The position numbers were made by a program, and so were the translations under genes. 50,682 nucleotides of DNA, taken from the IMG/VR virus record IMGVR_UViG_3300043409_001235, positions 1 to 50,682 of that record; one strand, written 5' to 3'. This document shows positions 14,765-50,032 of this stretch, piece by piece. Under the pieces are notes generated by a model. It had not been told where the DNA came from, did no database searches, and saw only the letters and a program-made list of their open reading frames with translations. Source of the DNA: a virus. Position 1 is the stretch's first letter. Each line of letters opens with the position of its first letter.

Positions 14765-17700
14765 AGGTAAGGACTTTCCTCTCCTTTAAGATGGCGGTTT
14801 GGATTACAATCATAACAATCTTTATCAAACCCTATAAATCTTCCATTTTTCTGATCACAATCTCCTGGAGTAGTACTCAAACATGTATATAAAGCCGGAA
14901 ATACTATACGACCATTTTCGTCGACGACTGGTTCTTCAACAGTATTTAGACAACACGCACCAATATAATATTTGCAACAATTTTCTCTCATACAATCAGC
15001 TAGTATTCCCTGATCTGCACTACACATTTTATTGTATTCCCATGCAAATGCAAATTTTGGATCTGGTCCACTACAACCCGGCTCTGTTGTAATACTACAA
15101 GACGTTTCCCATGTATATACATTTGTCTTACAACATGCACCAGTTGAGCCTGGTGGACCAGTAATAACTCCACCATCTGAACAAGGATCATCATCACACA
15201 TCTTGTTTGCATCCCAATTACCTGTACATTTACATTGTACAGTATCAGTACAGCTGGTACCTATACAACATGCACCAAGTTCAAACTGATTCGAACTACA
15301 GCCTCCTACAAGATTTTGACAATCCACGTGATCTGTAAATTGTCCTTGTTTTAAAAAACATGAGAATTCATCAAAATTATCACCACATTTTGTGTTTTCC
15401 CCCTCAATATAACAACACGAACCTATTCCTGTAACAACACACTCAGGATTTGGTTTTATGTATCTATTATTCAACCAAGCTTCAGAAGAAATCAATGGAT
15501 ATGTTGGAGTATAGTGCACATGAATATCACTGTAAACAGGATCTAGTATTTCATAATCTGTTGTAATTCCTGCTTCCGCTATAACACGTATTTTTCTTCT
15601 TGGTATATAATCCGTATATGGATCATTTCTAGATATAGGTGTTGATGCTTCTTCTGTTGTATTAAATACTCGAGCAGTATCTCCATATGATTCTACTTCT
15701 CTCCACGCCGATATCGGACTACCGGGCAACCCAGTAAAAGCACCTGTATAGTATCGTGTTCTACCTTTTATACTATAGATCTTTCCAATCTCGTCTGTAG
15801 TTTGTAATGTGCCAGATAATCCAGGATTTGATCTGTAATATAAAACAGGACTAGATCCTTTTATGTCTATTTGACACGGCGCATAAGTTATTAATTTTTT
15901 TACTTCGGCGCCAACTATTGTTTTATAGAAAACTTCATCAATCTGATTAGGGGTATTGGTATTCGGATCCCATGCTTCAATTGGTATAGTTGCATAATCA
16001 TATCTATTTCCCCAACACATAAAATGTCTGGAAATGGCACCAGCTGGTGTTGTACAACGACACACAGTGCACGTTTCCCCAGTCTTTCCAGCAGAAATCC
16101 AATCCCAAGAACCTACGCTGCCGATTGTGCCTAACCGGTTATCACATACTTTATCTGCTGAAATCATAGAAATATATGGCATTGCACCCGTACCACCATG
16201 CCATATTGGATGGTCTTCGTGTCCCAATGTTACTCCATATTTAAAACAACAGGTAAATCCTAGAGAATAAGAAGTATTACACATATCATAATTAATTATA
16301 TTACCGTCTTTAAAAGAACATACATTATTATCAGAATCAAATACTCTAAATTCTATTGGAGTTGCACCATCCATTCCTGTAAGGCCTATATCGTATAATT
16401 TATCTTTTTGATTAGTATAAGATATTTCGTTTACACATTTCATCATATTGGGACCATATTTATTTGAGGCAAACAAAGATAAATCCCTTGAATCTCCTCC
16501 AAATAAATTAATATCTGCTGTAGACCATTTTGTTTTTGTTTGATCTATTTTGCCGTAGGTCTGCCCAGAAAATTGAATCAAATATGGTACAGTTTTTATT
16601 TGAGGAGGACCAAGTATATTGTCTACTCTCTCTATACCAGCATCCCATTTTCCTAAACTAACTACTGCATGTCTTTCACCTACAGCAATTTGATTATAAA
16701 AAACACTAGTATACATGTCTTTTTCGACATCACACGTTCCAGAAGAAGAATATAAAGAACAATAGGTATGACCCACAACATCCCCACACGTCGTGCCTGG
16801 ACCTGCCATGAAATTGTTGGGATATAACATATTTGCTATTCTAAATATTAACAAATCTGGTCTTTCACCAAATACACCCATAGTATATCCAGTATAATTA
16901 ACCATAACAACAGGATTACTATTACCAGTTGTTCCACACACAATCTTGGGAGGAAGAGTAGATCCCACAGGATAAGTAATATCATTTATAACAATTTCGC
17001 GTGGTAATCCAATACTTCCACCAGGATAACCATAATTGTATATATCATTAGCAAGTTCCACACAATCTGCACTCCATCCACTAGACGAACAGCAATTAGG
17101 ATAGAAAGAACATACCAAATCTGAGCAATACGAACATCCAAGTGGAGAACAGTATCCAGCCGGATTGTTGCAAGTACATCCTGCTATACCTACTATACTA
17201 TGAGTAACCCCACAATTATTCATAGATATTCCCTGTGGAAAAGCAGAAAGATAATTAAATCCAAATGGTCGATACGGAAGAACATTCATATTAGACCACA
17301 GAGTAGCAAATACATCACCTTCAGAACTTATACCCACACCAATTGAATAATCGTTAAACGTTGATCCACATAAAACACGAGGTGGAATTACATCTGGATC
17401 ACAAGGTTCAACTGGTGCAACAGGATTACAAGGTATTCTTAGATTTGTATATTCGATGTTATTGATATTCCAAGTAAGAGTTGGACCATGTGGTGGACCT
17501 ACAGGTAACATAACTCCCTGTTGGTATATCAAATTAGAAACAGTAACGCAGTCTGCACTCCACCCTGTTGGAGATGTACCTATATAATTTGATACATCAC
17601 AACAAGCTGGCATTAACAAACACACCATATCTGTACAAAAAGAACAGCCTACAGCAGAACAAGGTGTTAGTGAATTAGCGCATGTGCATCCTGGCAAAAC

Positions 17701-19404
17701 TACATCACCCTCAATACCGACAAGAGTTTTATGTACAGTACTACAATTTGATGATGCTGAAATTTCTATAAAATCGTTTTGATGTACTTTATCATTTCTA
17801 GATCTATTTCCATCTATAAAATATGGAACAGCAGTAAAGTCCAACGATAATTGCATTAAGTCTGAGAAATATAGATCAGATTTTGTTCTGGCACTGAATT
17901 TATCTTTATCGATAATTGATATATAATTTTTGTATATGACTCCACTCAAAAAGGTTGGAGAAACATAAGAAAAATATCTTGATCCTTGTGCAACTTGAAG
18001 GGGGTTCGTGACACTAAAATAATTACTTTCATTACCGCCAGGGAAATTTATTCCCTGTTTATTACTTCCTAATATTTGATTTTTGTAAGAAGATATAGAA
18101 GTATACCATGGTCTATTAGAGTCACTTAAACCATATACATGACTATACGATTCTACACCATTCGGATTACAATTAGGTATTCCGTTTATCAACCCACATG
18201 TAGGAGTTTTATTTATAGGTAAAATAATTGTACTTGATATTCCTTGTATGGATTTCGGGTTTAGTGTTTTATAATAATCCTTTATATTATAATGAGGACA
18301 ACATGAAATAGTTTTACATAAACTACCATTACCTTGACCACAAGTCGGACATGGACCTTCTTCTCCTTCTCCCCCCGATTCGTTTTTACCTGAACCAGAT
18401 CCTGAACCAGATCCTGAACCAGATCCTGAACCAGATCCTGAGTCGTCATCAGGAAGACAAGGTTCGCCATCATTACATGGAGGATTTTGACAACATTGAG
18501 GACATCCATTCACACCACAAGAACCAGTACAATCACAGTCAGGACAACTTCCTTCGCCACACCTTACGCAAAAGCCATCACATGGAGGACATCCTGGACT
18601 TCCACATGGTCCATTACAAGTCGTACATGGAGGACATCCAGGAGTGCCACATATAGGACATGGACATTGAGGACATCCAACAGTACCACATCCTTCTGGA
18701 CAAGTTATATCATCACCACCACAACCCCCAAATCCACCACCACTTCCGCTACCACTACCACTTCCGCTACCACTACCACTTCCGCGGCCACTACCACCGT
18801 CGTTGCCGCATAGAGGACATCCATTCACACCACAAGAACCAGTACAATCACAGTCAGGACAACTTCCTTCGCCACATTTTGTTATACAACTGCCACCACA
18901 TGGAGGACATCCTGGACTTCCACATGGTCCATTACAAGTCGTACATGGAGGACATCCAGGAGTACCACAGGCGGGACAATACCCACTACATGGTCCATTA
19001 CAATCGCCACTACCACACCGAGGACATCCTGGAGTTCCACATGGTCCATTACAAGTCGTACATGGACATTCAAGAGTGCCACAGACGGGACAATTACCAG
19101 TACATTCAGGACATTCGTTTACACCACATGAGCCAACACAACTACACGGAGGACATCCATAATCACCACAATTTCCAACACAAACACCGCCACCACCACC
19201 GCCACCATTACACGGTATACCGTCACCTCCTACTGATAACTCATAACAAAATTCATAAGTTAAGCCGGGTATTAGACCATCTATTTTATATTTTTTTATA
19301 ATAGGAGGGGCATTATCGAATGCATATTTAGAATATCCAATCTCATATAACTCACAAATTTCTGCACAATGTGGCGCATTACATGGACAAGTATTTCCTA
19401 TCAT
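14761..19404 (-). CDS. Giant Cys-rich tail/fibre protein
   Basis: A 1547-residue protein, not assigned to a family. Residues about 65-380 are a dense array of short modules such as CNGPCGTPGCPRC and CTGSCGVNGCPLC, broken by two Gly-Ser linkers. Two later domains (about 585-660 and 745-820) each carry the pattern VC-x4-P-x-CC followed by GWSADCV and a helix, a Cys motif known from large secreted bacterial proteins. The C-terminal 200 residues hold four more GACC-type modules. The start is the ATG at 19,404, which gives an ATGA overlap; an in-frame TTG at 19,410 is less likely. Cysteine load implies disulfide or metal cross-linking, so folding outside the reducing cytoplasm or after lysis is inferred. 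Confidence 0.8.
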   Translation of the reverse strand: MIGNTCPCNAPHCAEICELYEIGYSKYAFDNAPPIIKKYKIDGLIPGLTYEFCYELSVGGDGIPCNGGGGGGGVCVGNCGDYGCPPCSCVGSCGVNECPECTGNCPVCGTLECPCTTCNGPCGTPGCPRCGSGDCNGPCSGYCPACGTPGCPPCTTCNGPCGSPGCPPCGGSCITKCGEGSCPDCDCTGSCGVNGCPLCGNDGGSGRGSGSGSGSGSGSGSGGGFGGCGGDDITCPEGCGTVGCPQCPCPICGTPGCPPCTTCNGPCGSPGCPPCDGFCVRCGEGSCPDCDCTGSCGVNGCPQCCQNPPCNDGEPCLPDDDSGSGSGSGSGSGSGSGSGKNESGGEGEEGPCPTCGQGNGSLCKTISCCPHYNIKDYYKTLNPKSIQGISSTIILPINKTPTCGLINGIPNCNPNGVESYSHVYGLSDSNRPWYTSISSYKNQILGSNKQGINFPGGNESNYFSVTNPLQVAQGSRYFSYVSPTFLSGVIYKNYISIIDKDKFSARTKSDLYFSDLMQLSLDFTAVPYFIDGNRSRNDKVHQNDFIEISASSNCSTVHKTLVGIEGDVVLPGCTCANSLTPCSAVGCSFCTDMVCLLMPACCDVSNYIGTSPTGWSADCVTVSNLIYQQGVMLPVGPPHGPTLTWNINNIEYTNLRIPCNPVAPVEPCDPDVIPPRVLCGSTFNDYSIGVGISSEGDVFATLWSNMNVLPYRPFGFNYLSAFPQGISMNNCGVTHSIVGIAGCTCNNPAGYCSPLGCSYCSDLVCSFYPNCCSSSGWSADCVELANDIYNYGYPGGSIGLPREIVINDITYPVGSTLPPKIVCGTTGNSNPVVMVNYTGYTMGVFGERPDLLIFRIANMLYPNNFMAGPGTTCGDVVGHTYCSLYSSSGTCDVEKDMYTSVFYNQIAVGERHAVVSLGKWDAGIERVDNILGPPQIKTVPYLIQFSGQTYGKIDQTKTKWSTADINLFGGDSRDLSLFASNKYGPNMMKCVNEISYTNQKDKLYDIGLTGMDGATPIEFRVFDSDNNVCSFKDGNIINYDMCNTSYSLGFTCCFKYGVTLGHEDHPIWHGGTGAMPYISMISADKVCDNRLGTIGSVGSWDWISAGKTGETCTVCRCTTPAGAISRHFMCWGNRYDYATIPIEAWDPNTNTPNQIDEVFYKTIVGAEVKKLITYAPCQIDIKGSSPVLYYRSNPGLSGTLQTTDEIGKIYSIKGRTRYYTGAFTGLPGSPISAWREVESYGDTARVFNTTEEASTPISRNDPYTDYIPRRKIRVIAEAGITTDYEILDPVYSDIHVHYTPTYPLISSEAWLNNRYIKPNPECVVTGIGSCCYIEGENTKCGDNFDEFSCFLKQGQFTDHVDCQNLVGGCSSNQFELGACCIGTSCTDTVQCKCTGNWDANKMCDDDPCSDGGVITGPPGSTGACCKTNVYTWETSCSITTEPGCSGPDPKFAFAWEYNKMCSADQGILADCMRENCCKYYIGACCLNTVEEPVVDENGRIVFPALYTCLSTTPGDCDQKNGRFIGFDKDCYDCNPNRHLKGEESPYL
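18389..18441 (-). repeat. 12-bp tandem repeat encoding a Gly-Ser linker
   Basis: Tandem copies of gaaccagatcct (plus-strand reading) encode the SGSGSG linker of the giant Cys-rich protein. A second, less regular Gly-Ser linker lies near 18,735-18,795. Such repeats can change copy number and so linker length. Confidence 0.8.
18498..18650 (-). repeat. Internal duplication, copy A (copy B at 18,813-18,968)
   Basis: About 150 bases inside the giant Cys-rich gene recur 315-318 bases away at 18,813-18,968, in the same frame and nearly identical except for a short divergent patch. The unit encodes several Cys modules. The near identity shows recent in-frame duplication. Confidence 0.85.
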
Positions 19405-20225
19405 GGACAACCACCTCCACCATCATCATCGCCGCCACCATCATCGTCACCACCACCATCATCATCGCCACCATCATCATCGCCGCCACCATCATCGTCA
19501 CCACCACCACCACCACAGTCTCCTTTGGTAACCCATCCATTTGCTGCAGCATCCCATTGTTTACTACAAGGTTCTTGGTCGTCATAACAACCCCATTCTT
19601 CAGATTTACAAGCACAACAAGCGCAGATTGCCTCGCGAGCAACTTCTCCCGTGATTTGATTAAGTGGTGGACATGCAGTATCGCACCCACCACATGTACC
19701 GCAAGCGTGTGCAGATTCCACGCCGGGACAACATTTGTTGCCGTTACACCCTGGCCAAGTTTTGGAGACACTTATAGCTGCTGGACATACTTGACCAGGT
19801 ACCTCTGGCGTGGGCCATTTGTCTGGTGCAGATCCACAGCATATGTGATAATCTGGTGCTACTTTGCAGCCATAATGTGACAAATCCCACCACGCCGTGA
19901 CAACATCACCACACAGTTTTTCTGGTGGACCATCAAAATCAGCTGTTGGATCTGGTCCGCTTTGTGGAGCTCCACTAAAAGCTTGAGGTCTGCCTGTCTC
20001 TCCAGCTTCACACGAACAACACTCTGTACGGGCTGCAAAACAATAATGCGACAGTTTGAGACCAGTTGGACCTAATGGAACTGAATTTCCATTGGAATCT
20101 GTCCCACCACCACCATTTTCTTTGCCATTTAGTTGAGTGAATGGAGGACAACCACGACACAACGCATCTTGGCAATACTTATATTGCCTAGTCGGCGTCC
20201 ACACTGTTTTTGATGTATGCGACAT
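19401..20225 (-). CDS. Cys-rich protein with Asp-Gly repeat tail
   Basis: A 274-residue protein not recognised. It has about thirty cysteines (for example ECCSCEAGETGR, CGTCGGCDTACPP, CACCACKSEEWGC) and ends in roughly 35 residues of DDDGG units followed by CP. The Asp-Gly tail looks suited to bind Ca2+ or to form an extended acidic spacer; this is inference. Its Gly codons supply the GGAGG upstream of the next gene, which overlaps by ATGA. Its own start overlaps the previous stop (TAATG). The tail is encoded by trinucleotide-like repeats at 19,411-19,515 and may vary in length. Confidence 0.7.
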   Translation of the reverse strand: MSHTSKTVWTPTRQYKYCQDALCRGCPPFTQLNGKENGGGGTDSNGNSVPLGPTGLKLSHYCFAARTECCSCEAGETGRPQAFSGAPQSGPDPTADFDGPPEKLCGDVVTAWWDLSHYGCKVAPDYHICCGSAPDKWPTPEVPGQVCPAAISVSKTWPGCNGNKCCPGVESAHACGTCGGCDTACPPLNQITGEVAREAICACCACKSEEWGCYDDQEPCSKQWDAAANGWVTKGDCGGGGGDDDGGGDDDGGDDDGGGDDDGGGDDDGGGGCP

Positions 20226-21520: not shown

Positions 21521-23284
21521 TTAAGAATTAACCTCCCATATTTCAGAGTATATTGTATTTTTTAATGATCTTCCATCACACCTAATTAATCTGATAGGTC
21601 TTATTTTTTTAGAGGTAAGTCTGTCATCTTTTTGTACAGAATATTGATTGTCAAAATTAACAGACCATGCAGATGATCCTATATTATCAGTAGTTATGCC
21701 GTTAGAATATCCTTCTCCTGTTATTCCTGTATAATTGAATGTGCCAGTAGAAGACCAATAATCTCCAAACATTGGAGTTCCTCCAACAGAAATAATAGTG
21801 TCATTCAGATTGTTATATTTACACTGATGAGCAATAAATGATAATTCATTTATACTGGGTATAAACCACGAACTTGTATAGTCCACTACTTTAGTAGTAG
21901 TTGAATTCAAATCTCTTATCGGTTTAGTTGCAGGAGTCATATAATTCGAAGAAAATCTAGAAGATGGGGCATATAAAGAAGGATATAGGTTATTATCTGT
22001 TGTTGTTCCTTGTTCGTAGTACATCTGTGCATTTACCATTCTTACTGTATTGTGTAGACCCCAATCAGAAAACCACCTACCATTAAATCCATGAGTTGTC
22101 CTATTATATATTCTTTCAATTGGAGTTTCATTATATTCTCTTCTAGAACAAGATGGAATGGAATTTTCTTGTATTATTTTTTTATTAACCTCAAAGGATA
22201 AGGAAGTATTGATTATATACCCTTCCTTTAAATTGTTTAATTTATCACCATATGGTTCTACAACTTTACCATATGATTTGATTAAAGGCCCATAATAAAA
22301 TCCTCCATGACTCCATGTATAATTTTGTTGACCAGTAACACCTTCAGATGCTGGATTAATCGACATTATCATTATGTAAGAATCTGAAGAATTGTCACAT
22401 AAATCATAATCATACAGACCATAACCATTATAATCATAGGACGAGGTATATGCCTTTGAAATTACAGTATCATTACTTACTAATTCGGAAAATCCTAAAT
22501 TGCCCCCAAATAGCGGATTTCCATAACAAGCAGAACCCTTTGGGTTATATATTCCTACGACAATTCCATCTTCAAATATATCACCTACTTTTAGTGTATA
22601 TCCAACTATACTGTCTAAACAGGGAATATCTCTTGTAAAACAGGAATATTGATAACATGATCTATTTTGACCAAGGTATAAACTTTTTTGAGAAATACAA
22701 TATGTTCCTGTTATTCCATTATTACAAGTTACTCCATTACAACATCCTCCAGTTCCTCCTATGCATATTTCGTTTTCACAGACAGTTCCCAATCCTTGGA
22801 AAAAATGATCCATTTTTAAACATACATTTTCTGTTGTTTCGTGACACATGCCATTTCCATCACAACAAGCTCCTAATTCATCAACAACATTTTTACATGA
22901 ATTTTTGGTACATGGAATCGGATTCCATACGAATGAAAAATTAAAAGAATTGGCTAAATTATAACAATCACAGTATGAAGTTTCCTGACATGGTAATGCA
23001 GTACTATTTTCTTTATCTCTAAGACAACAAGATCCAATTTGAGAAGAGTTGCATGTTATACCTTGTTGAAAAACTCCTTTTGCTCTATCACAAATATAAG
23101 CATCAGAATGAAAACAAGTACACCCACTTACACCAGTTATTCTACAAGAACCTGTTACTGATTTAAAATTACTTATTATATTATTATCTCTAGTATCTAA
23201 TATGACTTGATCAGATATAGACTCTATAACACTTTCACTTAGTGTTGTTTGTACTATTGGTTTGAGTATTGGTTTAGGAGCCAT
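21521..23284 (-). CDS. Cys-module protein with C-terminal Lcl/DUF1566-like domain
   Basis: A 587-residue protein. The N-terminal 210 residues contain four Cys modules (for example GSCCLRDKENSTALPC and GACCDGNGMCHETTENVC). The rest resembles Lcl/DUF1566 domains: VGDIFEDGIVVGIYNPKG near residue 235, WFIPSINELSFI (473-484), GDYWSST (507-513) and a closing KKIRPIRLIR. These domains occur in bacterial surface proteins and phage receptor-binding proteins, so a role in adhesion at the tail tip is plausible but inferred. Ribosome-binding site AGGAAA. It is the best preserved member of the pair with 11,320-12,132. Confidence 0.78.
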   Translation of the reverse strand: MAPKPILKPIVQTTLSESVIESISDQVILDTRDNNIISNFKSVTGSCRITGVSGCTCFHSDAYICDRAKGVFQQGITCNSSQIGSCCLRDKENSTALPCQETSYCDCYNLANSFNFSFVWNPIPCTKNSCKNVVDELGACCDGNGMCHETTENVCLKMDHFFQGLGTVCENEICIGGTGGCCNGVTCNNGITGTYCISQKSLYLGQNRSCYQYSCFTRDIPCLDSIVGYTLKVGDIFEDGIVVGIYNPKGSACYGNPLFGGNLGFSELVSNDTVISKAYTSSYDYNGYGLYDYDLCDNSSDSYIMIMSINPASEGVTGQQNYTWSHGGFYYGPLIKSYGKVVEPYGDKLNNLKEGYIINTSLSFEVNKKIIQENSIPSCSRREYNETPIERIYNRTTHGFNGRWFSDWGLHNTVRMVNAQMYYEQGTTTDNNLYPSLYAPSSRFSSNYMTPATKPIRDLNSTTTKVVDYTSSWFIPSINELSFIAHQCKYNNLNDTIISVGGTPMFGDYWSSTGTFNYTGITGEGYSNGITTDNIGSSAWSVNFDNQYSVQKDDRLTSKKIRPIRLIRCDGRSLKNTIYSEIWEVNS

Positions 23285-30445: not shown

Positions 30446-32149
30446 TTACTCTAATATTAATTTAACTCTAGCTGCAACAGATTTCAGTTCACTTATATTC
30501 TTGTATAGAGAGGTTATAGAAATAGCTAATTCATCAACAGTATATATTTTATTAATTAACATATGTCCTTTTCCATAACTTATCATACCAGCATCTATAT
30601 GTGGTCTATATGAATATGTTTGGTCTGGATTTAATTGCCATGCTTCTAATCTAATGTATGCATTATTATCAGAAACAGGGGATGGTAATCTCAATACTAT
30701 TTGTGTACTTTCTTCTTCTTCACTCACAAGAATAAACGGATTGCAAATAGTTACAGATGTTGTAGATCTTTCTATTGGATAATTGAGTGAAATTTCAGAT
30801 ACTTGTGTATCTTTTATAGTAAATTCATATAATATAGAATTAACAGTCAAAGAAGTTAGTCCTCTTGAACGAAAACCATTACCAATAGTAGATATTTCTT
30901 GGGCATCTATTGCTAAATTAAATAAATAGTCAGTCACATATTCACCGTTTATAGAATTAAATTTAGCAATAATATTATTTTTTATTGTTTCTTGTTGATT
31001 ATTTGAAATACCATTATCAAATACAACAGACGATTTAACGGTAACTAAAGCTTTATTAGGTATAATATATTCTGGCAAAACAGTTAACATATTTTTTTCT
31101 CGTAAATAATTTATTATTTCTTGTGAATTTGCTATATCTTCAAATGGTAAAAATGAAACAAACACTCTACCATATTTTGGCGGATATATTTCATCTCCGC
31201 CGTATATAGCAACTTGATTGGTATTATTGATAAAGTTATTTTTTAACAATAATGCTACATAATCTTGTGTAGTTACTGCTCTTTCTTGACCTGAAAAAAC
31301 TTTTGGAGCTATAAATTTTATACTATTGATATCTGGTCCATCTTTACCCCCAGCAGATGGAAGATACACATCAACTACTGTTGTATCTGAAAATTGATAT
31401 AACCCATTAGAATCAGATCCAGAAGATAACAAATAACTAATTCTAATAGAATCTCCACTTTCTATAGATTTTCCTAAATTATTGTATTTTCCTAGTTCTA
31501 TAGTAAATACAGTTCCCATTCTTTCTATATAAAAAATATTATCATCATTGTTGGGAAAATTGTTAACATTAGTCCATTCTGTCCAATCTTCTTCGCCATT
31601 TAGTTTTATTTCAACTCTTATTGTAGAAATATCAACGTCCTCTTCGTCTAAAATATATCTTTGTTTTATATAATCAAAATTAGAAGATATATCTAAACTA
31701 TTAACTAATTGATATCCTTCTGTTACATCAAGCCGATCTGCTATAGAATTAGTTAAAGGTGCTATATTTGTATTATAAAAAGTATAATATACTCCGTTAG
31801 TATTTATAGCAGTGAATGGGGTATATCTTGCAAGATCATTACCACCATCTAAATAATATTTAATTTTAGTACTAGATGATTTTTTCCCAGGAATAGTATA
31901 TCCTAGTGGTTTAACTAATGATGTTAGAGATTCTATACGAGTAGCTGTATCTAAAAATAATTCACTAGTAATCATATTAGAATAAAACGCATAATAATAT
32001 GTATTGTATGATAATAAATCAATTAAGGTCTGTATTACAGTACCTTCAAAATTATAGTCAACAAATACTGACTGGTTTTTTAAAAAATCAGTTAAAGATT
32101 TTTTAATATCAGGAAAGTTTAATTTGGTTAAATCTGGATTAGTTGTCAT
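30446..32149 (-). CDS. 6: Baseplate wedge protein, gp6-like
   Basis: A 567-residue baseplate wedge protein of the T4 gp6 / phage gpJ family, which forms the inner ring that holds wedges together and moves when the baseplate opens. The N-terminal region shows the family pattern VDYNFEGTVIQTLIDLLSYN and then MITSELFLDTATRIES, followed by LVKPLGYTIPGKKSS. The segment TTQDYVALLLKN near residue 295 is also typical. It is coupled to gp25 by an ATGA overlap, which is the common order gp25-gp6. Confidence 0.93.
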   Translation of the reverse strand: MTTNPDLTKLNFPDIKKSLTDFLKNQSVFVDYNFEGTVIQTLIDLLSYNTYYYAFYSNMITSELFLDTATRIESLTSLVKPLGYTIPGKKSSSTKIKYYLDGGNDLARYTPFTAINTNGVYYTFYNTNIAPLTNSIADRLDVTEGYQLVNSLDISSNFDYIKQRYILDEEDVDISTIRVEIKLNGEEDWTEWTNVNNFPNNDDNIFYIERMGTVFTIELGKYNNLGKSIESGDSIRISYLLSSGSDSNGLYQFSDTTVVDVYLPSAGGKDGPDINSIKFIAPKVFSGQERAVTTQDYVALLLKNNFINNTNQVAIYGGDEIYPPKYGRVFVSFLPFEDIANSQEIINYLREKNMLTVLPEYIIPNKALVTVKSSVVFDNGISNNQQETIKNNIIAKFNSINGEYVTDYLFNLAIDAQEISTIGNGFRSRGLTSLTVNSILYEFTIKDTQVSEISLNYPIERSTTSVTICNPFILVSEEEESTQIVLRLPSPVSDNNAYIRLEAWQLNPDQTYSYRPHIDAGMISYGKGHMLINKIYTVDELAISITSLYKNISELKSVAARVKLILE

Positions 32150-32538
32150 ATAATTATATTTAGTGTTTGTATTTCTGTTGTTTTGACGTTTGTATATGTG
32201 ATCCCTAGATTTAAATTAGAAGATACAAGATTTAACGTTATATTTATATCTTTTATTCTAGGCTCATATCTCATTAATACTGATATTATCTCATTTATTG
32301 TTGTAGTAGAAGTATATTGGTCATTTACAACTCTAGACTTATTTTCAAATAATATATTGGAATATATTGTTGTTCCTATTTGTGTGTTAAATGCTCTTTG
32401 ACCAAAGATTGTCAAAACAAGATTCTTTATACAATTGTTTATAGACACGTTACCTTTTACTAAATTTATATCTTTAGTAAACATGTTTTTAGTTATAAAA
32501 ACAGGTATGTCTGTTGCATTATATCCTAATATTCTCAT
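32146..32538 (-). CDS. 25: Baseplate wedge protein, gp25-like
   Basis: A 130-residue protein of the gp25 family, a lysozyme-like fold used structurally in the wedge, where it starts sheath assembly. The family's signature EPR lies at 92-94 (RYEPRIKDI), after NLVLTIFGQRAF and the IGTTIYSNILFE segment. The start at 32,538 is chosen because it overlaps the upstream stop as TAATG; an in-frame GTG at 32,550 would overlap more and fits less well. Length matches T4 gp25 (132). Confidence 0.93.
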   Translation of the reverse strand: MRILGYNATDIPVFITKNMFTKDINLVKGNVSINNCIKNLVLTIFGQRAFNTQIGTTIYSNILFENKSRVVNDQYTSTTTINEIISVLMRYEPRIKDINITLNLVSSNLNLGITYTNVKTTEIQTLNIII

Positions 32539-33587
32539 TAGGATTCCCACTTATCTTGTTCTAAAATATAGATTGGAGAGTCCCATCCCACATCATCTGC
32601 TTTATATTTATTTGTATCTCTCATTAGAGTTAATATTGTTGATTGGTTTTTGTTCTCAAATTTATATTCTATTTCTGTTATTAGCCATTTTCCGTGAATT
32701 TTTCTTTCTTCTCGTCCTATCATTTTATTTTGATCCTGAACGATTATGATGTCTCCTAATTTCAATTCCTTGGACAAAGCTGCTACAGTTACAGTAATTG
32801 TATTAGATTTTAGTTGTCCCATCTGTGCTATTCTAACTAATGGAGTGGTGTGGGGAGTTTCCAAAAATGTAGAATATGTTCTAGTATATGATAAATAATC
32901 ACCAAAAGATACTCCCTGTTCTGGACACAAACAGCTACATGGATGTTTCGGGTCATTCCATATACATCCCATATATTTTTCACCAAATTTTTCCTTTATG
33001 AGATCACATTCATTTGTTTTTAAGTATGCTTCATATAACTTTAAATATGACGGTTCAACTTCTGTTGGTTTAGAACTTTGAGCTGGACAATTTGCATGAA
33101 TATCTCCCTGCGTTGCTCTCTTAGGTTGATTTTTTACTGGATATGAACACCAATCTAAGTCTAGACTTTTACAAGATAAGTTTCCTGGACCAAAAACTAC
33201 AAATTGTGCAGCCCAATTAGAATCAAATAGATCATAATTTGGTTCATTAATGGGTGGTTCGACTAATCCATAGTCACTTTCTCCACTAATATCCCACTTC
33301 CATACGTCTTTTGTCTTGAGTGGAGTGTTGCCGGGGTTATAGATTATAGCATCACCATTCATCCAACTCATGGTAGTTTCGGTAAAATACTTATCTAAAC
33401 TCGATTTGTATGTATCACTATAAGCTGATAGATGAGTATTTCTATTAATTTCTAATGAAACGGCTTGCTCAATAAGGCTATGGTCTGTTGGTAACTCTGG
33501 ATAATTATCAGCAGTTAAGCCTGGTAACCATGGTCCGACTTCACAGTTTATTTCTTTATCTGGAGGATTTGTCTCATTTGTTGCCAT
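32538..33587 (-). CDS. Baseplate hub-region protein, unassigned
   Basis: A 349-residue protein. The C-terminal 100 residues (KLGDIIIVQDQNK, GKWLITEIEYKFENKN, STILTLMRD) look like the beta-barrel end of hub proteins that sit beneath the spike, including gp27-type proteins. The middle has a Cys cluster (HPCSCLCPEQG) and an aromatic-rich stretch. It ends at the gp25 start. T4 has the lysozyme spike gp5 near here, but no lysozyme catalytic region is visible. A TATAAATA lies six bases before the ATG. Confidence 0.65.
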   Translation of the reverse strand: MATNETNPPDKEINCEVGPWLPGLTADNYPELPTDHSLIEQAVSLEINRNTHLSAYSDTYKSSLDKYFTETTMSWMNGDAIIYNPGNTPLKTKDVWKWDISGESDYGLVEPPINEPNYDLFDSNWAAQFVVFGPGNLSCKSLDLDWCSYPVKNQPKRATQGDIHANCPAQSSKPTEVEPSYLKLYEAYLKTNECDLIKEKFGEKYMGCIWNDPKHPCSCLCPEQGVSFGDYLSYTRTYSTFLETPHTTPLVRIAQMGQLKSNTITVTVAALSKELKLGDIIIVQDQNKMIGREERKIHGKWLITEIEYKFENKNQSTILTLMRDTNKYKADDVGWDSPIYILEQDKWES

Positions 33588-33652: not shown

Positions 33653-36220
33653 TTAAACTTCTTTATTTTGGGAAGATTGTACTATGCGAAACGCTTTATT
33701 GAACATATTTTTATATTCATTTATATCATTTGGTCTGGATATATATTCCAATTTAGTGAAAATATCACCAATATTTAATTGGTCTAGAAAAGTAGCAATA
33801 AAAGAAACAGTGTTTTCAATATATTTTGAATTTTTTCTGTTTTTGTAATTGGTCATAGCATAAAATCTACCAAGAATACAAGAAGATATGGTACTTATTG
33901 ATATTTCGTTATTTTTATATTTTATTTTTTCAAAGTCATAACCACCCATAACTGTCTGACTACGTTTTCTAAAAATATCGACCACCATTCCATTGTTCGT
34001 ATTGATAATAATAATAGGAAATTCTGTTTTTACTACTCCCATATCATCTAACGATGTTCTTTCAAAAACACTGTTAATATAATCCATATTATAATACCAT
34101 TCTTTGGGTAGTATATTTAAAAATTTTGTCATAGCATCCGAATCTATAATATCCTCTATTACAATATCAACATCCTTTATGTCCGTCAATATATTTCTAT
34201 TTGTATTTAATTTATAATTTTTATGTATATTTAATGCTATACCTCCCACCAAACTTGGAGATAAATTATTATTTTCGAGTATGGATAATAAATTTATTAT
34301 GCTATTTTCTTTATCATTTGGATTTAAAGTATTATAGTTATAAATTTCTATATTATTGTTTAGTTCTACAAGTTTTTCTTCAAGTTCTATACCACCCTGA
34401 ACACCCATCAATCTAAAACTACTGCCGCCACCACCATCACATTCTGCACTATTACAAGAGGGACATCCTTCATTTTCTCCACAAACAGAACAGTTCGAAC
34501 AACTACAATCATCACAGGTGTCAATTGGTCCACCATCACATGTCGGGCTATCACAGGAAGGACATCCTGGACATTGTCCACATAAAGCACAAGTATCACA
34601 GTTACACTCAGAACATGGAGGATTTTCACACTCACATGTATCATTACGACATGAATCTATTTTATTTGTTTTAATATAAATATCTGTCCCATCCCCATCC
34701 CAAACAGGATCATGATAATCCTTTACGTCAGTAAATAATAACTGCATAAAACGAAAAGATCTTAAATTATAATCCTTACAACATCCAGGATTATCATCTG
34801 GTATTCGATACCCTGTATCGAACGGATCCATTAAATCTAGAATAGATGAAATAAAGTTCCCGAACTGAAAAATACCATCTACTCCTGTTCCTGCTGACCG
34901 CGGCATATCTGCACTTGGCCCAATAGTATGAAGTACTTCAATATCTCCAGAGTTGTAACTATCTTCACCTTGTGTAGGTACTTTCGATATGTAGCTAGGG
35001 GTAACTCTACATTGCTCACAGACACCAAGTTTTTTGTTATTATCAGAACATTTAGTTTGTGGACACAATAATGGTGCATTGCATATTGCTAATTTAGGGA
35101 AAAGACCACCATTCGGCGTTCGATTTGATGCCCAATCTTTCCAGTTAGGATAGTCAGTTTGTGTTAATTCCCAATTGATAATAGGTGGATTTATTGTTGA
35201 CCATTTACCAGGATCATTAGTGGTCATTTCTGTCAATTCTCTTGGCCATGTATTCATGGTATACACATAGTCATGACATTCATCTATACCATTATATTCC
35301 ATTTTAAAATTTTCACATATATTTTTACACGTTTTATATAATGTTGGAACATGTTCTGTTCTAAAATTTTCAGTTAAAGCAGAAAATTCAAATCCAATAG
35401 TTGTCGTGTAGCCAGGATTAAATGATGCTACAGTTAGATTTGGTGGTTCAATTACTCCCAATATTGTAAATGGAGAGTAAGCTAAATCTGCACAAGCCGT
35501 ATTTTGTAATGCTGCTTCTGCACAAGCAGAATTCCATTTACCAGTACAGCATTGGGGTAGAGTTGCACATACAGCAGATCTACACACTTTACTAGGACAC
35601 CATGCTTCAGATGGTAATTGTTCTTCAATACCTTCTCCACCATCACACAAAACACTACAACCACATCCATCATCCTTTGACACTTCATTGCATGGTTTAG
35701 TACATCTATTATAATAGTTTGGTCCGTACTTTTCTCTATTTTTTATTGTTAAATTTGTGTTTGGTCGACATCCCACATACGTATTATCAATAGCACCCCC
35801 AAACCACCATCCCCATTCAGCGTCAACAACATTAAATTTATTATAATCATTATTTGGCCACCACGAGTTTACATCCACATTTATAGTCCAAACTGTATCT
35901 AATTTTTCTGGAGTAATTAGTCCTTCATTATATGCTTTCGCATAAGGACTCCATGGCGCAGTCCACGTTTCAGCTGGAAAAGCATATCTATCACTATGAT
36001 CTCTTTTTATTTCATAATATTTGATTTGAGTTCGGATTCCACATGAATCTTTCGGAACCCAGTCTGGTCCTGCAGTGCCGTCTCCATTACACGGAGGATA
36101 ACAACCACTACCTGCTCGTGAATAACAACAAGGAGGTTCAAATTTGCTCTGAATATACCCATATATAGGATATGAATTTGACAGATACCAAAAATTATCA
36201 CCACAACAACAAAATGCCAT
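33653..36220 (-). CDS. Cys-rich hub-region protein with C-terminal nucleotidyltransferase-like domain
   Basis: An 855-residue protein with three parts. Residues 1-528 are aromatic and Cys-containing and include one VC-x4-P-x-CC motif (212-243: VCATLPQCCTGKWNSAC). Residues 529-594 are a Cys cluster (CNCDTCALCGQCPGCPSC) and are followed by a GGGG linker. Residues 605-855 resemble a nucleotidyltransferase fold of the minimal/AbiEii-like type: LVGGIALNIH (657-666), then TDIKDVDIVIED with Asp683 and Asp685, and a third Asp748 in GMVVDIFRK. The reading frame is open throughout; Met605 has no good ribosome-binding site, so a fusion is favoured. It lies between the gp27-like hub gene and baseplate genes. 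Activity and substrate are unknown. Confidence 0.75.
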   Translation of the reverse strand: MAFCCCGDNFWYLSNSYPIYGYIQSKFEPPCCYSRAGSGCYPPCNGDGTAGPDWVPKDSCGIRTQIKYYEIKRDHSDRYAFPAETWTAPWSPYAKAYNEGLITPEKLDTVWTINVDVNSWWPNNDYNKFNVVDAEWGWWFGGAIDNTYVGCRPNTNLTIKNREKYGPNYYNRCTKPCNEVSKDDGCGCSVLCDGGEGIEEQLPSEAWCPSKVCRSAVCATLPQCCTGKWNSACAEAALQNTACADLAYSPFTILGVIEPPNLTVASFNPGYTTTIGFEFSALTENFRTEHVPTLYKTCKNICENFKMEYNGIDECHDYVYTMNTWPRELTEMTTNDPGKWSTINPPIINWELTQTDYPNWKDWASNRTPNGGLFPKLAICNAPLLCPQTKCSDNNKKLGVCEQCRVTPSYISKVPTQGEDSYNSGDIEVLHTIGPSADMPRSAGTGVDGIFQFGNFISSILDLMDPFDTGYRIPDDNPGCCKDYNLRSFRFMQLLFTDVKDYHDPVWDGDGTDIYIKTNKIDSCRNDTCECENPPCSECNCDTCALCGQCPGCPSCDSPTCDGGPIDTCDDCSCSNCSVCGENEGCPSCNSAECDGGGGSSFRLMGVQGGIELEEKLVELNNNIEIYNYNTLNPNDKENSIINLLSILENNNLSPSLVGGIALNIHKNYKLNTNRNILTDIKDVDIVIEDIIDSDAMTKFLNILPKEWYYNMDYINSVFERTSLDDMGVVKTEFPIIIINTNNGMVVDIFRKRSQTVMGGYDFEKIKYKNNEISISTISSCILGRFYAMTNYKNRKNSKYIENTVSFIATFLDQLNIGDIFTKLEYISRPNDINEYKNMFNKAFRIVQSSQNKEV

Positions 36221-43816: not shown

Positions 43817-45910
43817 ATGAAATATAAAAATGAATTAATAAATGTAATTAAAAATACTTTTATTTTTGGTATCAATGATACGTTATTACCAAATACGTAT
43901 GATACTAATTTATATCCAGAAGATAAAAATTTTAAAGATATCGATAACCCTCAACAAAGAAATATAAATTCAGATATTATTTTCGATAGACCATTGAATA
44001 ATATTACTAACTCTAAATTTAAAAATAAAAATTCGATGGCATCTAGATTTTTAGATATTCAAAAAAATATAGACATACTACCAAAAAAATTCAACAAGAT
44101 ATTGGAAAAAATAAATATAGTTCAACCAAACAATGATATTATTAAACACTTACCATCAGAATCCGTTGAACCCGTATCAAAGACCTTAGCCACATCAGAA
44201 TCGTTTGAACCAATACCCGAGTCCGTAAAGATACCACCAGAATCCTTTGAACCCGTATCAAAGACCTTAGCCACATCAGAATCGTTTGAACCCGTATCAA
44301 ACACTTTAGCCACATCAGAATCGTTTGAACCTGTATCAAAGACCTCTATTGTACCATCAGACTCCTTTGAACCAATACCTGAGTCCGTAAAGATACCATC
44401 AGACTCATTTGAACCCGTATCAAACACTTTAGCCACATCAGACTCCTTTGAACCTGTATCAAAGACCTCTATTGTACCATCAGACTCCTTTGAACCCGTA
44501 TCAAAGACCTTAGCCACATCAGACTCCTTTGAACCCGTATCAAAGACTTTAGCCACATCAGACTCCTTTGAACCCGTATCAAAGACCTTAGCCACATCAG
44601 ACTCCTTTGAACCAATACCTGAGTCCGTAAACATACCATCAGAATCCTTTGAACCCGTATCAAAGACCTCTATTGTACCATCAGAATCCTTTGAACCCGT
44701 ATCAAAGACCTTAGCCACATCAGAATCCTTTGAACCAATACCTGAGTCCGTAAACATACCATCAGACTCCTTTGAACCAATACCTGAGTCCGTAAACATA
44801 CCATCAGAATCCTTTGAACCCGTATCAAAGACCTCTATTGTACCATCAGAATCCTTTGAACCCGTATCAAAGACCTTAGCCACATCAGAATCCTTTGAAC
44901 CAATACCCGAGTCCGTAAACATACCATCAGAATCCTTTGAACCAATACCTGAGTCCGTAAAGATACCATCAGAATCCTTTGAACCCGTATCAAAGACCTT
45001 AGCCACATCAGAATCGTTTGAACCTGTATCAAAGACCTCTATTGTACCATCAGACTCCTTTGAACCAATACCCGAGTCCGTAAACATACCATCAGAATCC
45101 TTTGAACCAATACCCGAGTCCGTAAAGATACCATCAGACTCCTTTGAACCAATACCTGAGTCCGTAAACATACCATCAGAATCCTTTGAACCCGTATCAA
45201 AGACTTTAGCCACATCAGAATCGTTTGAACCTGTATCAAAGACCTCTATTGTACCATCAGACTCCTTTGAACCCGTATCAAAGACCTTAGCCACATCAGA
45301 CTCCTTTGAACCAATACCCGAGTCCGTAAAGATACCTGATATTCTTTCTTCCTCTGAAGAAACAACTCAAACAATTACTCCATATACAAAAAGTATACCA
45401 AATTCTGTTGAAAATTTAAAAAAAATATCATTTGAACAAAAATTTAAAAGAGGAATTTTTTACCCAGATGCTGTAGAAATAAATAATATAAAAAGAAATT
45501 TATTTACAGATATTCTAGGAGATAATGTATCTCAAAATATTTTAAATAAAAATTTACAAAAAATTCCTGCATTTAAAGATGGAGGCAAATTTGCCTCATC
45601 TGGTGTAGATTTTAAAGCTATAGCTTATAATGAACCAGGCAGTAGATCTAATGAAACTCATATAATACAACCAGATAATACACCTATGACTACTATAAGC
45701 AATATTAATACAACTAAAGAATCGTCTATTCCTATAGAAATGGAACAAGATATATCAGAATCTATATTAATTCTTAGTAACAGAATAAAGAAATTGGACA
45801 GGAAAAAAAACGACACACCAGGGCCAGAACCAAAATTGAAATATCCTCCAAACGGTAATAGAGGATTAAATAATAATATAGAAATATATTATAATTATTT
45901 TAATACATAA
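43817..45910 (+). CDS. Repeat-built protein in the tape-measure position
   Basis: A 697-residue protein with a unique N-terminus (1-113), a repeat region (about 114-507) and a unique C-terminus. The repeats are 29 units of 13-14 residues of three kinds: SFEPVSKTLATSE, SFEPVSKTSIVPSD and SFEPIPESVKIPSE. The C-terminus holds IPAFKDGGKFASSGVDF, reminiscent of the FxDGG segments near the ends of tape-measure proteins. The order tube-like, gp26, gp51, this gene is that of tape-measure loci, and no other gp29 candidate is in the window. Pro-rich repeats are unlike the usual helical ruler, so the role is tentative. It ends at a terminator. Confidence 0.7.
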   Translation: MKYKNELINVIKNTFIFGINDTLLPNTYDTNLYPEDKNFKDIDNPQQRNINSDIIFDRPLNNITNSKFKNKNSMASRFLDIQKNIDILPKKFNKILEKINIVQPNNDIIKHLPSESVEPVSKTLATSESFEPIPESVKIPPESFEPVSKTLATSESFEPVSNTLATSESFEPVSKTSIVPSDSFEPIPESVKIPSDSFEPVSNTLATSDSFEPVSKTSIVPSDSFEPVSKTLATSDSFEPVSKTLATSDSFEPVSKTLATSDSFEPIPESVNIPSESFEPVSKTSIVPSESFEPVSKTLATSESFEPIPESVNIPSDSFEPIPESVNIPSESFEPVSKTSIVPSESFEPVSKTLATSESFEPIPESVNIPSESFEPIPESVKIPSESFEPVSKTLATSESFEPVSKTSIVPSDSFEPIPESVNIPSESFEPIPESVKIPSDSFEPIPESVNIPSESFEPVSKTLATSESFEPVSKTSIVPSDSFEPVSKTLATSDSFEPIPESVKIPDILSSSEETTQTITPYTKSIPNSVENLKKISFEQKFKRGIFYPDAVEINNIKRNLFTDILGDNVSQNILNKNLQKIPAFKDGGKFASSGVDFKAIAYNEPGSRSNETHIIQPDNTPMTTISNINTTKESSIPIEMEQDISESILILSNRIKKLDRKKNDTPGPEPKLKYPPNGNRGLNNNIEIYYNYFNT
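44155..45337 (+). repeat. 29 tandem 39/42-bp coding repeats of three types
   Basis: Counted from the translation: 12 units ending in KTLAT (39 bp), 6 ending in KTSIVP (42 bp) and 11 ending in ESVKIP or ESVNIP (42 bp), total 1182 bp. Order is scrambled, and units differ mainly by Glu/Asp and a few silent changes. Near identity at DNA level shows recent expansion. Because repeats contain no stop in other frames, long false reading frames occur on the minus strand. Confidence 0.93.
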
Positions 45911-48559: not shown

Positions 48560-49363
48560 ATGTTTAATTCAAACAAATATAAAAATACAAAAAACAATAA
48601 AGAAAAAAACGAGTTTGAATATGTCAAGACGATTTCTTTTATTGGATTGGGTATAAGTGGATCGTATCTTTTAAATGATAGCTACACAGAGGGAATTCTT
48701 ATAACTCCCCAAGTTACTGTAGTTAAGTCTACAGCTCCAGACATTGTCTTTTTTGATTTTAATAATAAGTTGTATAATATAAACACAAACTCAAAAATTA
48801 TAGAATCGTTTTTTTCTAAATTTAGTGTAGGCAATACCTTTGATGTAACAGATTCTGTTTATGATTTTGACGAACACGATTTGAATGCAAATTTTACTTT
48901 TGTTACTTTTAAAAACAATTTACTAGTGGCTACATGCGCAGCTGGACTTACTAATGCTGCAGAACAAACCTATTACCCAGAATTATTCAATAGTGTTCCT
49001 GTGTTTGAGTTATCTTCTTCTAAAGTATTATATACAGATCCTAATACATTATTATTGACTAATATTATACCTAGTGTTAATAACTCTTTTATTTCCGCAG
49101 GAATAAAAGCAAATGATATTTTAGAATTTTTTGACCAAAAATATACAGTAGAATCTATCAAAAGTAAAATAAACAATACAGTAGAAGAATTGATATTAAT
49201 TAATTTTAACAATTATACAGTTATACCACCAATACAATTGAATAGTTATACTATAATTAATGTATACAAGCGTCTATCTACTAGTAGTGGAACAAGTCTT
49301 TCAGTGACTCCAACTGTAACTACAATTGCAGTTTCTGATACTCCAAATCAAATGTATATGTAA
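48560..49363 (+). CDS. Putative virion protein, unknown function
   Basis: A 267-residue protein not recognised. It has a Lys/Asn-rich start, then a beta-rich body (EYVKTISFIGLGISGSYLL, DVTDSVYDFDEHDL) and a Thr/Ser-rich end (SLSVTPTVTTIAVSD). It follows the 432-residue gene after four bases, so the two are probably co-translated and act together. Its TAA is followed within three bases by the tRNA 3'-half remnant. Confidence 0.65.
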   Translation: MFNSNKYKNTKNNKEKNEFEYVKTISFIGLGISGSYLLNDSYTEGILITPQVTVVKSTAPDIVFFDFNNKLYNINTNSKIIESFFSKFSVGNTFDVTDSVYDFDEHDLNANFTFVTFKNNLLVATCAAGLTNAAEQTYYPELFNSVPVFELSSSKVLYTDPNTLLLTNIIPSVNNSFISAGIKANDILEFFDQKYTVESIKSKINNTVEELILINFNNYTVIPPIQLNSYTIINVYKRLSTSSGTSLSVTPTVTTIAVSDTPNQMYM

Positions 49364-49365
49364 AA

Positions 49366-49389
49366 CATTTCCAATTGGGATCGAACCAC
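49366..49389 (-). pseudogene. Remnant of a tRNA 3' half
   Basis: Twenty-four bases matching the acceptor end and T arm of the tRNA-Arg at 49,929-50,002 (21 of 24 identical, position by position with 49,929-49,952). Sequence beyond the T arm does not form a tRNA. Immediately flanking bases (gtaaa before catt) are also shared. Confidence 0.75.
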
Positions 49390-49497
49390 TCAACACTGAA
49401 TACTTAATATACGACAAGATCGACAAAGACGAACTGAAGCTCAGGCCTATAAATATTAGAACTTATAAATAATATAAATCAACAAAAGGAGATTAAC
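49390..49497 (+). promoter_or_regulatory. Leader region with two late promoters and gp23-like leader
   Basis: After the tRNA remnant comes about 55 bases with no gene, then exact TATAAATA boxes at 49,448-49,455 and 49,464-49,471 and an AAAAGGAGATTAAC ribosome-binding site. From 49,464 to 49,496 the sequence equals the gp23 leader at 1-31 (minus strand) except for one substitution and a two-base insertion. Confidence 0.85.
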
Positions 49498-49662
49498 ATG
49501 CCTAGATTCCCAGGACCCCCACGAAGTCAGCGCGAAGCTCATGCAAGAGTCCAACAAAGTAGAACCCAAGGCGCCGCTGAGCGGCGGGCAGCATTTCAGG
49601 CAATTCCGCAGCGGAACCGTCGTCCAATTGGCCCTCCATTTCCTAGTCCGAGGCCTCGGTGA
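49498..49662 (+). CDS. Arg/Pro-rich basic mini-protein 1
   Basis: A 54-residue protein: starts MPRFPGPPRSQREAHARVQQ and ends GPPFPSPRPR, with about twelve arginines. It has an excellent ribosome-binding site and two late promoters, so it is probably strongly expressed late. GC content is far above the rest of the window and many arginines use CGN codons although the phage's own tRNA reads AGA, signs of foreign origin. A paralogue follows at 49,728. Basic and Pro-rich character suggests nucleic-acid binding or membrane activity, but no family is recognised. It could instead be a structured RNA, because the same bases form strong hairpins. Confidence 0.6.
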   Translation: MPRFPGPPRSQREAHARVQQSRTQGAAERRAAFQAIPQRNRRPIGPPFPSPRPR

Positions 49663-49687
49663 GGCGCCATATTCCGGTGAATTTGAT

Positions 49688-49715
49688 GGGCCGATAACAA
49701 AGTAAACATTCCCAA
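49688..49715 (+). repeat. 28-bp direct repeat, copy 1 (copy 2 at 49,910-49,937)
   Basis: Two identical 28-base copies follow each of the two GC-rich mini-genes. The last bases of each copy include the tRNA 3' acceptor sequence ATTCCCA; in copy 2 this is the real tRNA end. They mark a tandem duplication of a unit of about 225-230 bases made of ribosome-binding site, mini-gene and repeat. Confidence 0.9.
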
Positions 49716-49727
49716 AAGGAGATTAAC

Positions 49728-49919
49728 ATGCCATTCCCTTCACCCGCACGAAGCCAAACCCAAGTCAATAGAACCCAACAAGGGCGCGAAGGCGCCGCTG
49801 CCCGGCATCGGGCAGCATTTCCGGCCTCTCCGCCAATAATTAACGGCCGGGCCGTCGGAAGAGTTGGTCCTCGATTTCCTAGTCCGAGCACTCGTTCGCA
49901 GAGAGCCTCGGGCCGATAA
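49728..49919 (+). CDS. Arg/Pro-rich basic mini-protein 2 (paralogue of 1)
   Basis: A 63-residue protein starting MPFPSPARSQTQVNRTQQ and ending FPSPSTRSQRASGR. It shares with the mini-protein at 49,498 the N-terminal P-x-R-S-Q element, an NRTQ/SRTQ element, GAA-x-R-RAAF and the FPSP element, and has the same AAAAGGAGATTAAC ribosome-binding site. About twelve arginines, strongly basic. The GC-rich body forms hairpins at 49,800-49,813 and 49,843-49,855. It has no promoter of its own and would be read from the two late promoters upstream. Function unknown. Confidence 0.6.
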   Translation: MPFPSPARSQTQVNRTQQGREGAAARHRAAFPASPPIINGRAVGRVGPRFPSPSTRSQRASGR

Positions 49920-49937
49920 CAAAGTAAACATTCCCAA
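49910..49937 (+). repeat. 28-bp direct repeat, copy 2, running into the tRNA 3' end
   Basis: Identical to 49,688-49,715. It covers the stop of mini-gene 2 and the first eight bases of the tRNA 3' end read on the plus strand. Confidence 0.9.
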
Positions 49938-50002
49938 CTGGGATCGAACCAGTAACCTACAGATTAGAAATCTGTTGCTCTATCCAATTGAGCTATGGGA
50001 AT
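49929..50002 (-). tRNA. tRNA-Arg (anticodon UCU)
   Basis: A complete cloverleaf on the minus strand: acceptor ATTCCCA with TGGGAAT, D stem GCTC with GAGC, anticodon stem ACAGA with TCTGT around loop TTTCTAA (anticodon UCU), T stem ACTGG with CCAGT around TTCGATC, discriminator G. CCA is not encoded. It reads AGA, a codon favoured in AT-rich phage genes. Its 5' end directly adjoins the T run of a terminator. Confidence 0.95.
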
Positions 50003-50032
50003 AAAAAAGCCCACTATGTTTCCATAGTGGGC
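50003..50032 (-). terminator. Intrinsic terminator after the 99-residue gene
   Basis: A perfect 10-bp stem GCCCACTATG/CATAGTGGGC with a four-base loop, followed on the minus strand by TTTTTT. It lies 20 bases after the stop of the gene at 50,053 and immediately before the tRNA. Confidence 0.92.

Follow-up and report, generated by a model that had tools for sequence, protein, structure and literature searches.

A predicted nucleotidyltransferase domain on a cysteine-rich protein encoded in the gap of a split hub-type tail gene of an uncultured T4-related phage

Introduction

Why would a phage encode a nucleotidyltransferase (NTase)-like domain at the end of a cysteine-rich protein, in the midst of its baseplate genes? 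Most of the known particle-carried phage enzymes, such as T4 Alt and the MuF fusions, belong to the head, and a tail-hub locus with an exchangeable, NTase-holding slot would offer phages a mount for tip effectors. The question is raised by a gene in the window analysed here, which is the whole 50.7 kb stretch of an IMG/VR record. The window virus is an uncultured relative of phage T4, and its terminase is closest, among named phages, to those of the T4-like cyanophages (~53–56% identity). A sequence-only reading of the window had proposed that the gene joins an NTase domain to a Cys-rich protein of the baseplate hub region, and the sections below consider the gene, its locus, the family and relatives of the domain and its possible role.

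The gene and the split hub locus

The 855-aa open reading frame, which is encoded by the minus strand, is genuine, and the landmarks of the sequence-only reading are correctly numbered (LVGGIALNIH from residue 657, DVD at 683–685, VDIF at 747–750 with Asp748, GGGG from 596 and the domain from Met605; Table 1). The protein, termed the slot protein here, contains 52 Cys residues (6.1%), 51 of which are found in residues 1–600 and a single one in the C-terminal domain, and the proposed Gly linker (GGGG, 596–599) and Cys cluster are both present. As had been claimed, a single reading frame within the baseplate block joins the NTase domain to the Cys-rich sequence, and the same fusion is found in another virus, L113, which encodes a 734-aa homologue at the same position. 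The G+C content of the gene drops from 0.37 (residues 1–600) to 0.25 (residues 601–855), and that of the L113 homologue likewise falls from 0.40 to 0.25 at the domain boundary, which gives the NTase domain the look of a module of its own. Independent translation of the C-terminal part, which the sequence-only reading had itself named as a possible objection, is not borne out and was rejected as the default explanation, since no Shine-Dalgarno-like sequence was seen upstream of the in-frame ATG that encodes Met605 (agttttagattgATG) and since L113 has the same fusion.

The slot gene is flanked by a 1281-aa gene upstream and a 349-aa gene downstream, each of which matches a different part of phrog_350, so that the earlier placement in the 'baseplate hub region' was right and even understated. 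Based on its sequence and its place before the gp25-like and gp6-like wedge genes, we infer that the phrog_350 tail protein is a gp27-type hub; one database record names a relative 'baseplate wedge subunit'. In most relatives the same tail protein is a single ORF of ~1600–2200 aa, in two others (G028 and G030) it is split without a gene between the halves, and in the clade of the window it is split with a gene in the gap. A sequencing error was rejected as the cause of the split, because several independent contigs share it.

Table 1. Coordinates of the slot gene, its parts and the adjoining tail genes in the window
Feature	Position	Strand	Supporting observation
Slot gene, 855 aa: Cys-rich N-terminal part, Gly linker and NTase domain	33653..36220	-	L113:506-2710 matches both N- and C-terminal parts
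Cys-rich part, residues 1-600, 51 Cys, starts MAFCCC	34421..36220	-	MAFCCC start common to L113 and L117-L119
C..VC..CC..W..C module	35492..35599	-	Also in 1549-aa Cys-rich protein (14761-19410) and slot proteins of relatives
Densest Cys cluster, ~residues 525-595	34436..34648	-	
Gly linker GGGG, residues 596-599	34424..34435	-	
C-terminal predicted NTase domain, residues 605-855, from Met605	33656..34408	-	Homologue alignment, models, profile comparison
Motif 1, SLVGGIALNIH, residues 656-666 (LVGG 657-660)	34223..34255	-	
Motif 2, DVD, residues 683-685 (Asp683 and Asp685)	34166..34174	-	
Motif 2a, VDIF, residues 747-750 (Asp748)	33971..33982	-	
N-terminal half of split hub-type tail protein, 1281 aa	36229..40074	-	phrog_350 positions 33-100 and 178-306
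C-terminal half of split hub-type tail protein, 349 aa	32538..33587	-	phrog_350 positions 336-429
Baseplate wedge protein, gp25-like by gene order	32146..32550	-	phrog_261, phrog_43
Baseplate wedge protein, gp6-like by gene order	30446..32149	-	phrog_219, E=5e-76

Elsewhere in the window, a 697-aa protein (43817–45910) that consists mostly of SFEPVSKT/SFEPIPESV repeats adjoins the phrog_150 baseplate hub gene. Near the window end there is a G+C-rich island (49430–49990, ~0.55 in a contig of 0.33) that contains two short ORFs in tandem. Both are preceded by the same ribosome-binding region (AAAAGGAGATTAACATG), and they seem to encode related Arg/Pro-rich peptides. A tRNA-Arg(tct) gene (49928–50003, minus strand) adjoins these ORFs, and a short stretch at 49360–49410 (ttgggatcgaacca...) resembles the 3' part of this tRNA gene and is possibly a tRNA remnant.

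Evidence for an NTase fold

The Pol-beta NTase superfamily is defined by the motifs hG[GS], [DE]h[DE]h and h[DE]h in this order (PMC4125220). All three are present in order in the window domain (LVGG 657–660, DVDI 683–686 and VDI 747–749), and L113 has TGS, DIDV and MDI at the matching positions. The three active-site elements recognized by the sequence-only reading are therefore upheld, as the loose pattern hG[GS]..DhDh..hDh occurred in only 25 of 20,000 shuffles of residues 601–855 (P ~0.001) and the motifs recur in L113. The L113 homologue is 26% identical to the slot protein in the N-terminal part (E=1e-18) and 24% identical in the C-terminal domain (E=6e-17), and the Gly of the first motif and the three Asp are kept at aligned positions at this low identity, suggesting that the active site is under selection. 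Judged from the sequence, the predicted metal-binding site formed by Asp683, Asp685 and Asp748 is intact.

AlphaFold models of both domains were built from the two-sequence alignment and are of low confidence (pLDDT 49.5 for the window domain; pLDDT 56.7 and pTM 0.57 for that of L113), because only two homologues were found. When the low-confidence L113 model was compared to the PDB, Pol-beta-type NTase folds accounted for 50/50 among the matches listed; the best was JHP933 (4o8s, E=4.6e-4, probability 1.00), and the others include ANT(2'')-Ia, poly(A) synthases, FKRP, the CCA-adding enzyme, TUT7, Pol mu and SpoT. NTases also rank first for the window model, where the top ranks are held by the MenAT1 complex (8an5), an NTase-like protein, CdnE and ANT(2'')-Ia, none of them below E=0.001, and the order of the secondary structure elements fits the NTase core in both models. 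Structure prediction, which the sequence-only reading had suggested as a check, thus agrees with an NTase fold, though at low model confidence.

The profile search suggested along with it gave a divided answer. No significant match to the C-terminal domain was found in Pfam, PHROGs, NCBIfam, PADLOC or the PDB sequences; the best PHROGs match is phrog_1614 'nucleotidyltransferase' at a non-significant E=0.11, and the L113 domain reaches NTP_transf_5 at E=0.12, below the family cut-off. In profile-profile comparison, however, NTP_transf_5 aligned at the GG and DxD positions and none of 150 column shuffles did as well, while AbiEii and DUF6036 were equalled by 1/150 and 5/150 shuffles, respectively. 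A peptide scan and tblastn across IMG/VR, GenBank phages, plasmids and bacterial genomes revealed no direct relative of the domain except L113, which was reached via its gp6-like neighbour gene; one bacterial profile hit (L405) was rejected, as it turned out to be an unrelated long ORF. Considering the motif residues kept in L113, the fold matches of the L113 model and the NTP_transf_5 comparison, the C-terminal domain very probably adopts an NTase fold.

Which NTase family

The DUF1814/AbiEii family, with MenT1, MenT3 (TglT) and JHP933 among its members, is defined by motifs 1, 2 and 2a, by an invariant Arg and a Ser/Thr that precede the DxD, and by two further motifs (3 and 4) that lie in a helical domain (PMC7205606). 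The window domain has motifs 1, 2 and 2a, it shares the hG[GS], DhD and h[DE]h motifs and the order of an NTase core followed by a helical part, and members of this family are the best structural matches of both models. Nevertheless, no PF08843 (AbiEii/DUF1814) match was obtained for the window protein in the profile search, and the R-x-[ST]-x-D-x-D signature, present in 24/30 fetched AbiEii proteins, is absent from the window (T-D-I-K-D-V-D) and from L113 (K-G-L-K-D-I-D). By eye, the motif-3 Lys position appears to be Arg in both proteins and the motif-4 Asp position appears not to be kept. There is no AbiEi/MenA antitoxin gene beside the slot gene, both neighbours being hub halves, and, in a further departure from the family, the window domain is fused to a phage tail-block protein. 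Since the Arg and Ser/Thr, the PF08843 match and the antitoxin gene are all missing, a domain that is DUF1814-like in structure comparison is not filed there, and AbiEii membership is not supported.

The minimal MNT type is not supported either, because the domain, which ends in a long helical part, spans ~250 aa inside an 855-aa protein and no HEPN gene is found beside it, the flanks being hub halves and baseplate wedge genes. Of the minimal or AbiEii-type layout proposed from the sequence, the NTase fold and the active-site residues are thus supported (models, NTP_transf_5), and neither of the two family assignments is. NTP_transf_5 (PF14907) is the sole family whose alignment beat every shuffle; unlike the window domain, its fetched members are standalone bacterial proteins of ~335–490 aa. 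The C-terminal domain is best called a divergent Pol-beta-superfamily NTase.

The slot in related viruses

The contents of the slot vary. Three relatives (L117–L119) have a 171-aa MAFCCC protein and another (L120) a 610-aa Cys-rich protein, all of them without an NTase, and the slots of L242, L245, L248 and L253 also hold Cys-rich proteins. Those of L248 (L248:2-5938) and L253 (L253:3-5963) are nearly 2000 aa long, cut by the contig end, and carry RCC1 beta-propeller repeats and Cys-rich ends between the hub halves. The fused NTase was seen only in the window and L113, in collections that consist of contig fragments. Because most slot proteins of the relatives lack the NTase, the domain is apparently not needed for particle assembly. 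When the window is compared with L113, identity amounts to 72% at the end of the upstream hub half and to 56% in the downstream half, as opposed to ~25% for the slot protein, and the slot is therefore a fast-changing position in a conserved tail locus.

The C..VC..CC..W..C module is found repeatedly, both in slot proteins and in a Cys-rich window protein of 1549 aa; together with the RCC1 repeats, this fits slot proteins being exposed parts of the particle. The 1549-aa protein (14761–19410) has 8.8% Cys, long Gly-Ser repeats and two copies of the module, and its neighbours at 19401–20225 (9.9% Cys) and 21521–23284 (5.1% Cys) are also Cys-rich.

In L121 the slot encodes a 908-aa Cys-rich protein that ends in poly-Gly, followed by a separate 272-aa ORF (L121:7617-8435, the same ORF as L114:124-942) with a Cys-rich end and, by eye, an NTase-like motif (VVVGSVARFFHG..RDIDIL..IDLM; VVVGS). 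Profile comparison did not support this ORF as an NTase (15/100 shuffles were as good), and for this reason repeated recruitment of NTases to the slot is not claimed. The NTase of G046 (L081, phrog_4400/phrog_1614) was set aside as a relative, being a different protein beside the helicase loader and outside the hub slot; it is a standalone gene (L081:1231-1965) located directly before the phrog_269 helicase-loader gene in this 140-kb relative.

Possible roles of the slot protein

The slot protein is most likely a tail-tip or baseplate-hub component, and its gene context makes carriage by the virion probable and delivery plausible; the NTase would be active. The reading we prefer, in which our confidence is evenly balanced, is that of a variable tail-tip or baseplate-hub protein carrying a virion-borne NTase that would modify a host molecule early, or a phage or host target during assembly. 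The clade of T4-related phages to which the window belongs keeps this variable slot gene in the gap of its split hub-type tail gene. The Cys-rich N-terminal part, probably stabilized by disulphides, would form part of the tail tip or baseplate, and the Gly linker would tether the Pol-beta-type NTase and leave the domain free. After tail contraction, the NTase might transfer NMP to a host molecule, such as a tRNA end, another RNA or a protein, at the start of infection. By analogy, tRNA would be the natural first candidate substrate, because DUF1814 toxins lengthen tRNA ends (PMC10435456). Alternatively, the enzyme may modify its phage or host target during virion assembly, when NTP is available. 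In its boldest form, which we put forward only tentatively, the hub gene was broken in two and the gap became the site of an exchangeable cargo gene for a disulphide-rich tip protein, which in some lineages would include an NTase. Tail contraction would deliver this enzyme, and host RNA or protein would be modified as soon as infection begins.

Pol-beta-type NTases require NTP, which is absent outside the cell, and this counts against an enzyme carried by the virion. The preferred reading is also weakened by the low confidence of the models, by the lack of a curated family match for the domain and by the absence of the NTase from most slot proteins of the relatives, and it would require a folded domain to get from the baseplate into the cytoplasm. 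It is conceivable, although we think it rather doubtful, that the NTase is not injected and acts inside the infected cell after late expression, in RNA or tRNA end repair or in the modification of host or phage proteins, with the fusion being incidental or serving to couple it to assembly. NTP is available there, jumbo phages are known to repair RNA with CCA-adding and RlaP NTases (PMC7824862), and the NTase-like candidate of L121 (GS..RDID) occupies the slot as a gene of its own, so that the fusion would not be essential. Two lineages nevertheless retain the fusion behind a Cys-rich, structural-type part, profile comparison leaves the L121 candidate unsupported, and no RNA ligase or repair gene adjoins the slot gene.

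That a former NTase has been recruited as a non-catalytic module, binding a nucleotide or other ligand or holding parts together, is unlikely in our estimate. Of the DUF1814 motif residues the Arg is missing and, by eye, so is the Lys, and most related slot proteins do without an NTase, all of which would suit such a module. Repurposed enzyme folds are also common in phage adhesins, and count in its favour, but the Gly of the first motif and all three Asp of the predicted metal-binding site are retained at 24% identity, which speaks against the loss of catalysis. Finally, the motifs might have arisen by chance and the fold matches might be artefacts of poor models, in a domain that is not an NTase at all. 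The absence of any significant curated profile and the low confidence of both AlphaFold models leave some room for this; nonetheless, the single fold class among the PDB matches listed, the rarity of the motif pattern and of equally good NTP_transf_5 alignments in shuffles, and the secondary structure order of both models make it very improbable.

Comparison with known systems

Enzymes attached to or packaged with virion proteins include T4 Alt, the N4 virion RNA polymerase, MuF fusions and polyvalent proteins (PMC5512222), and the slot protein would resemble them in combining an enzyme domain with virion proteins. MuF has also been found fused to a RelA/SpoT domain, which is related to the Pol-beta NTases (PMC3482391), while Pol-beta NTases in polyvalent proteins have been reported from conjugative elements only (PMC5512222). 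Unlike T4 Alt, the N4 virion RNA polymerase, the MuF fusions and the polyvalent proteins, which are packaged in the head, the carrier in the window is encoded inside a tail-hub locus. The contractile phage Milano, whose tail and baseplate contain Cys-rich proteins linked by disulphides, provides a precedent (PMC10811340), although its structural proteins contain 2.1% Cys as compared to 6.1% in the slot protein, and Milano lacks the NTase. No NTase fused to a protein of a tail-hub locus was found in literature searches of an open-access library.

The arrangement also invites comparison with the T6SS effectors that are joined to VgrG, PAAR or Hcp. As in these systems (PMC3482391), an enzyme would be placed at a contractile, tail-like tip beside hub-type proteins. 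The window differs in representing a T4-related phage and in where the enzyme is attached, which is behind a Cys-rich protein that lies between the hub halves and is distinct from the hub chain itself. If the proposal is true, an exchangeable tip cargo with an NTase would be the phage counterpart of the T6SS tip effectors.
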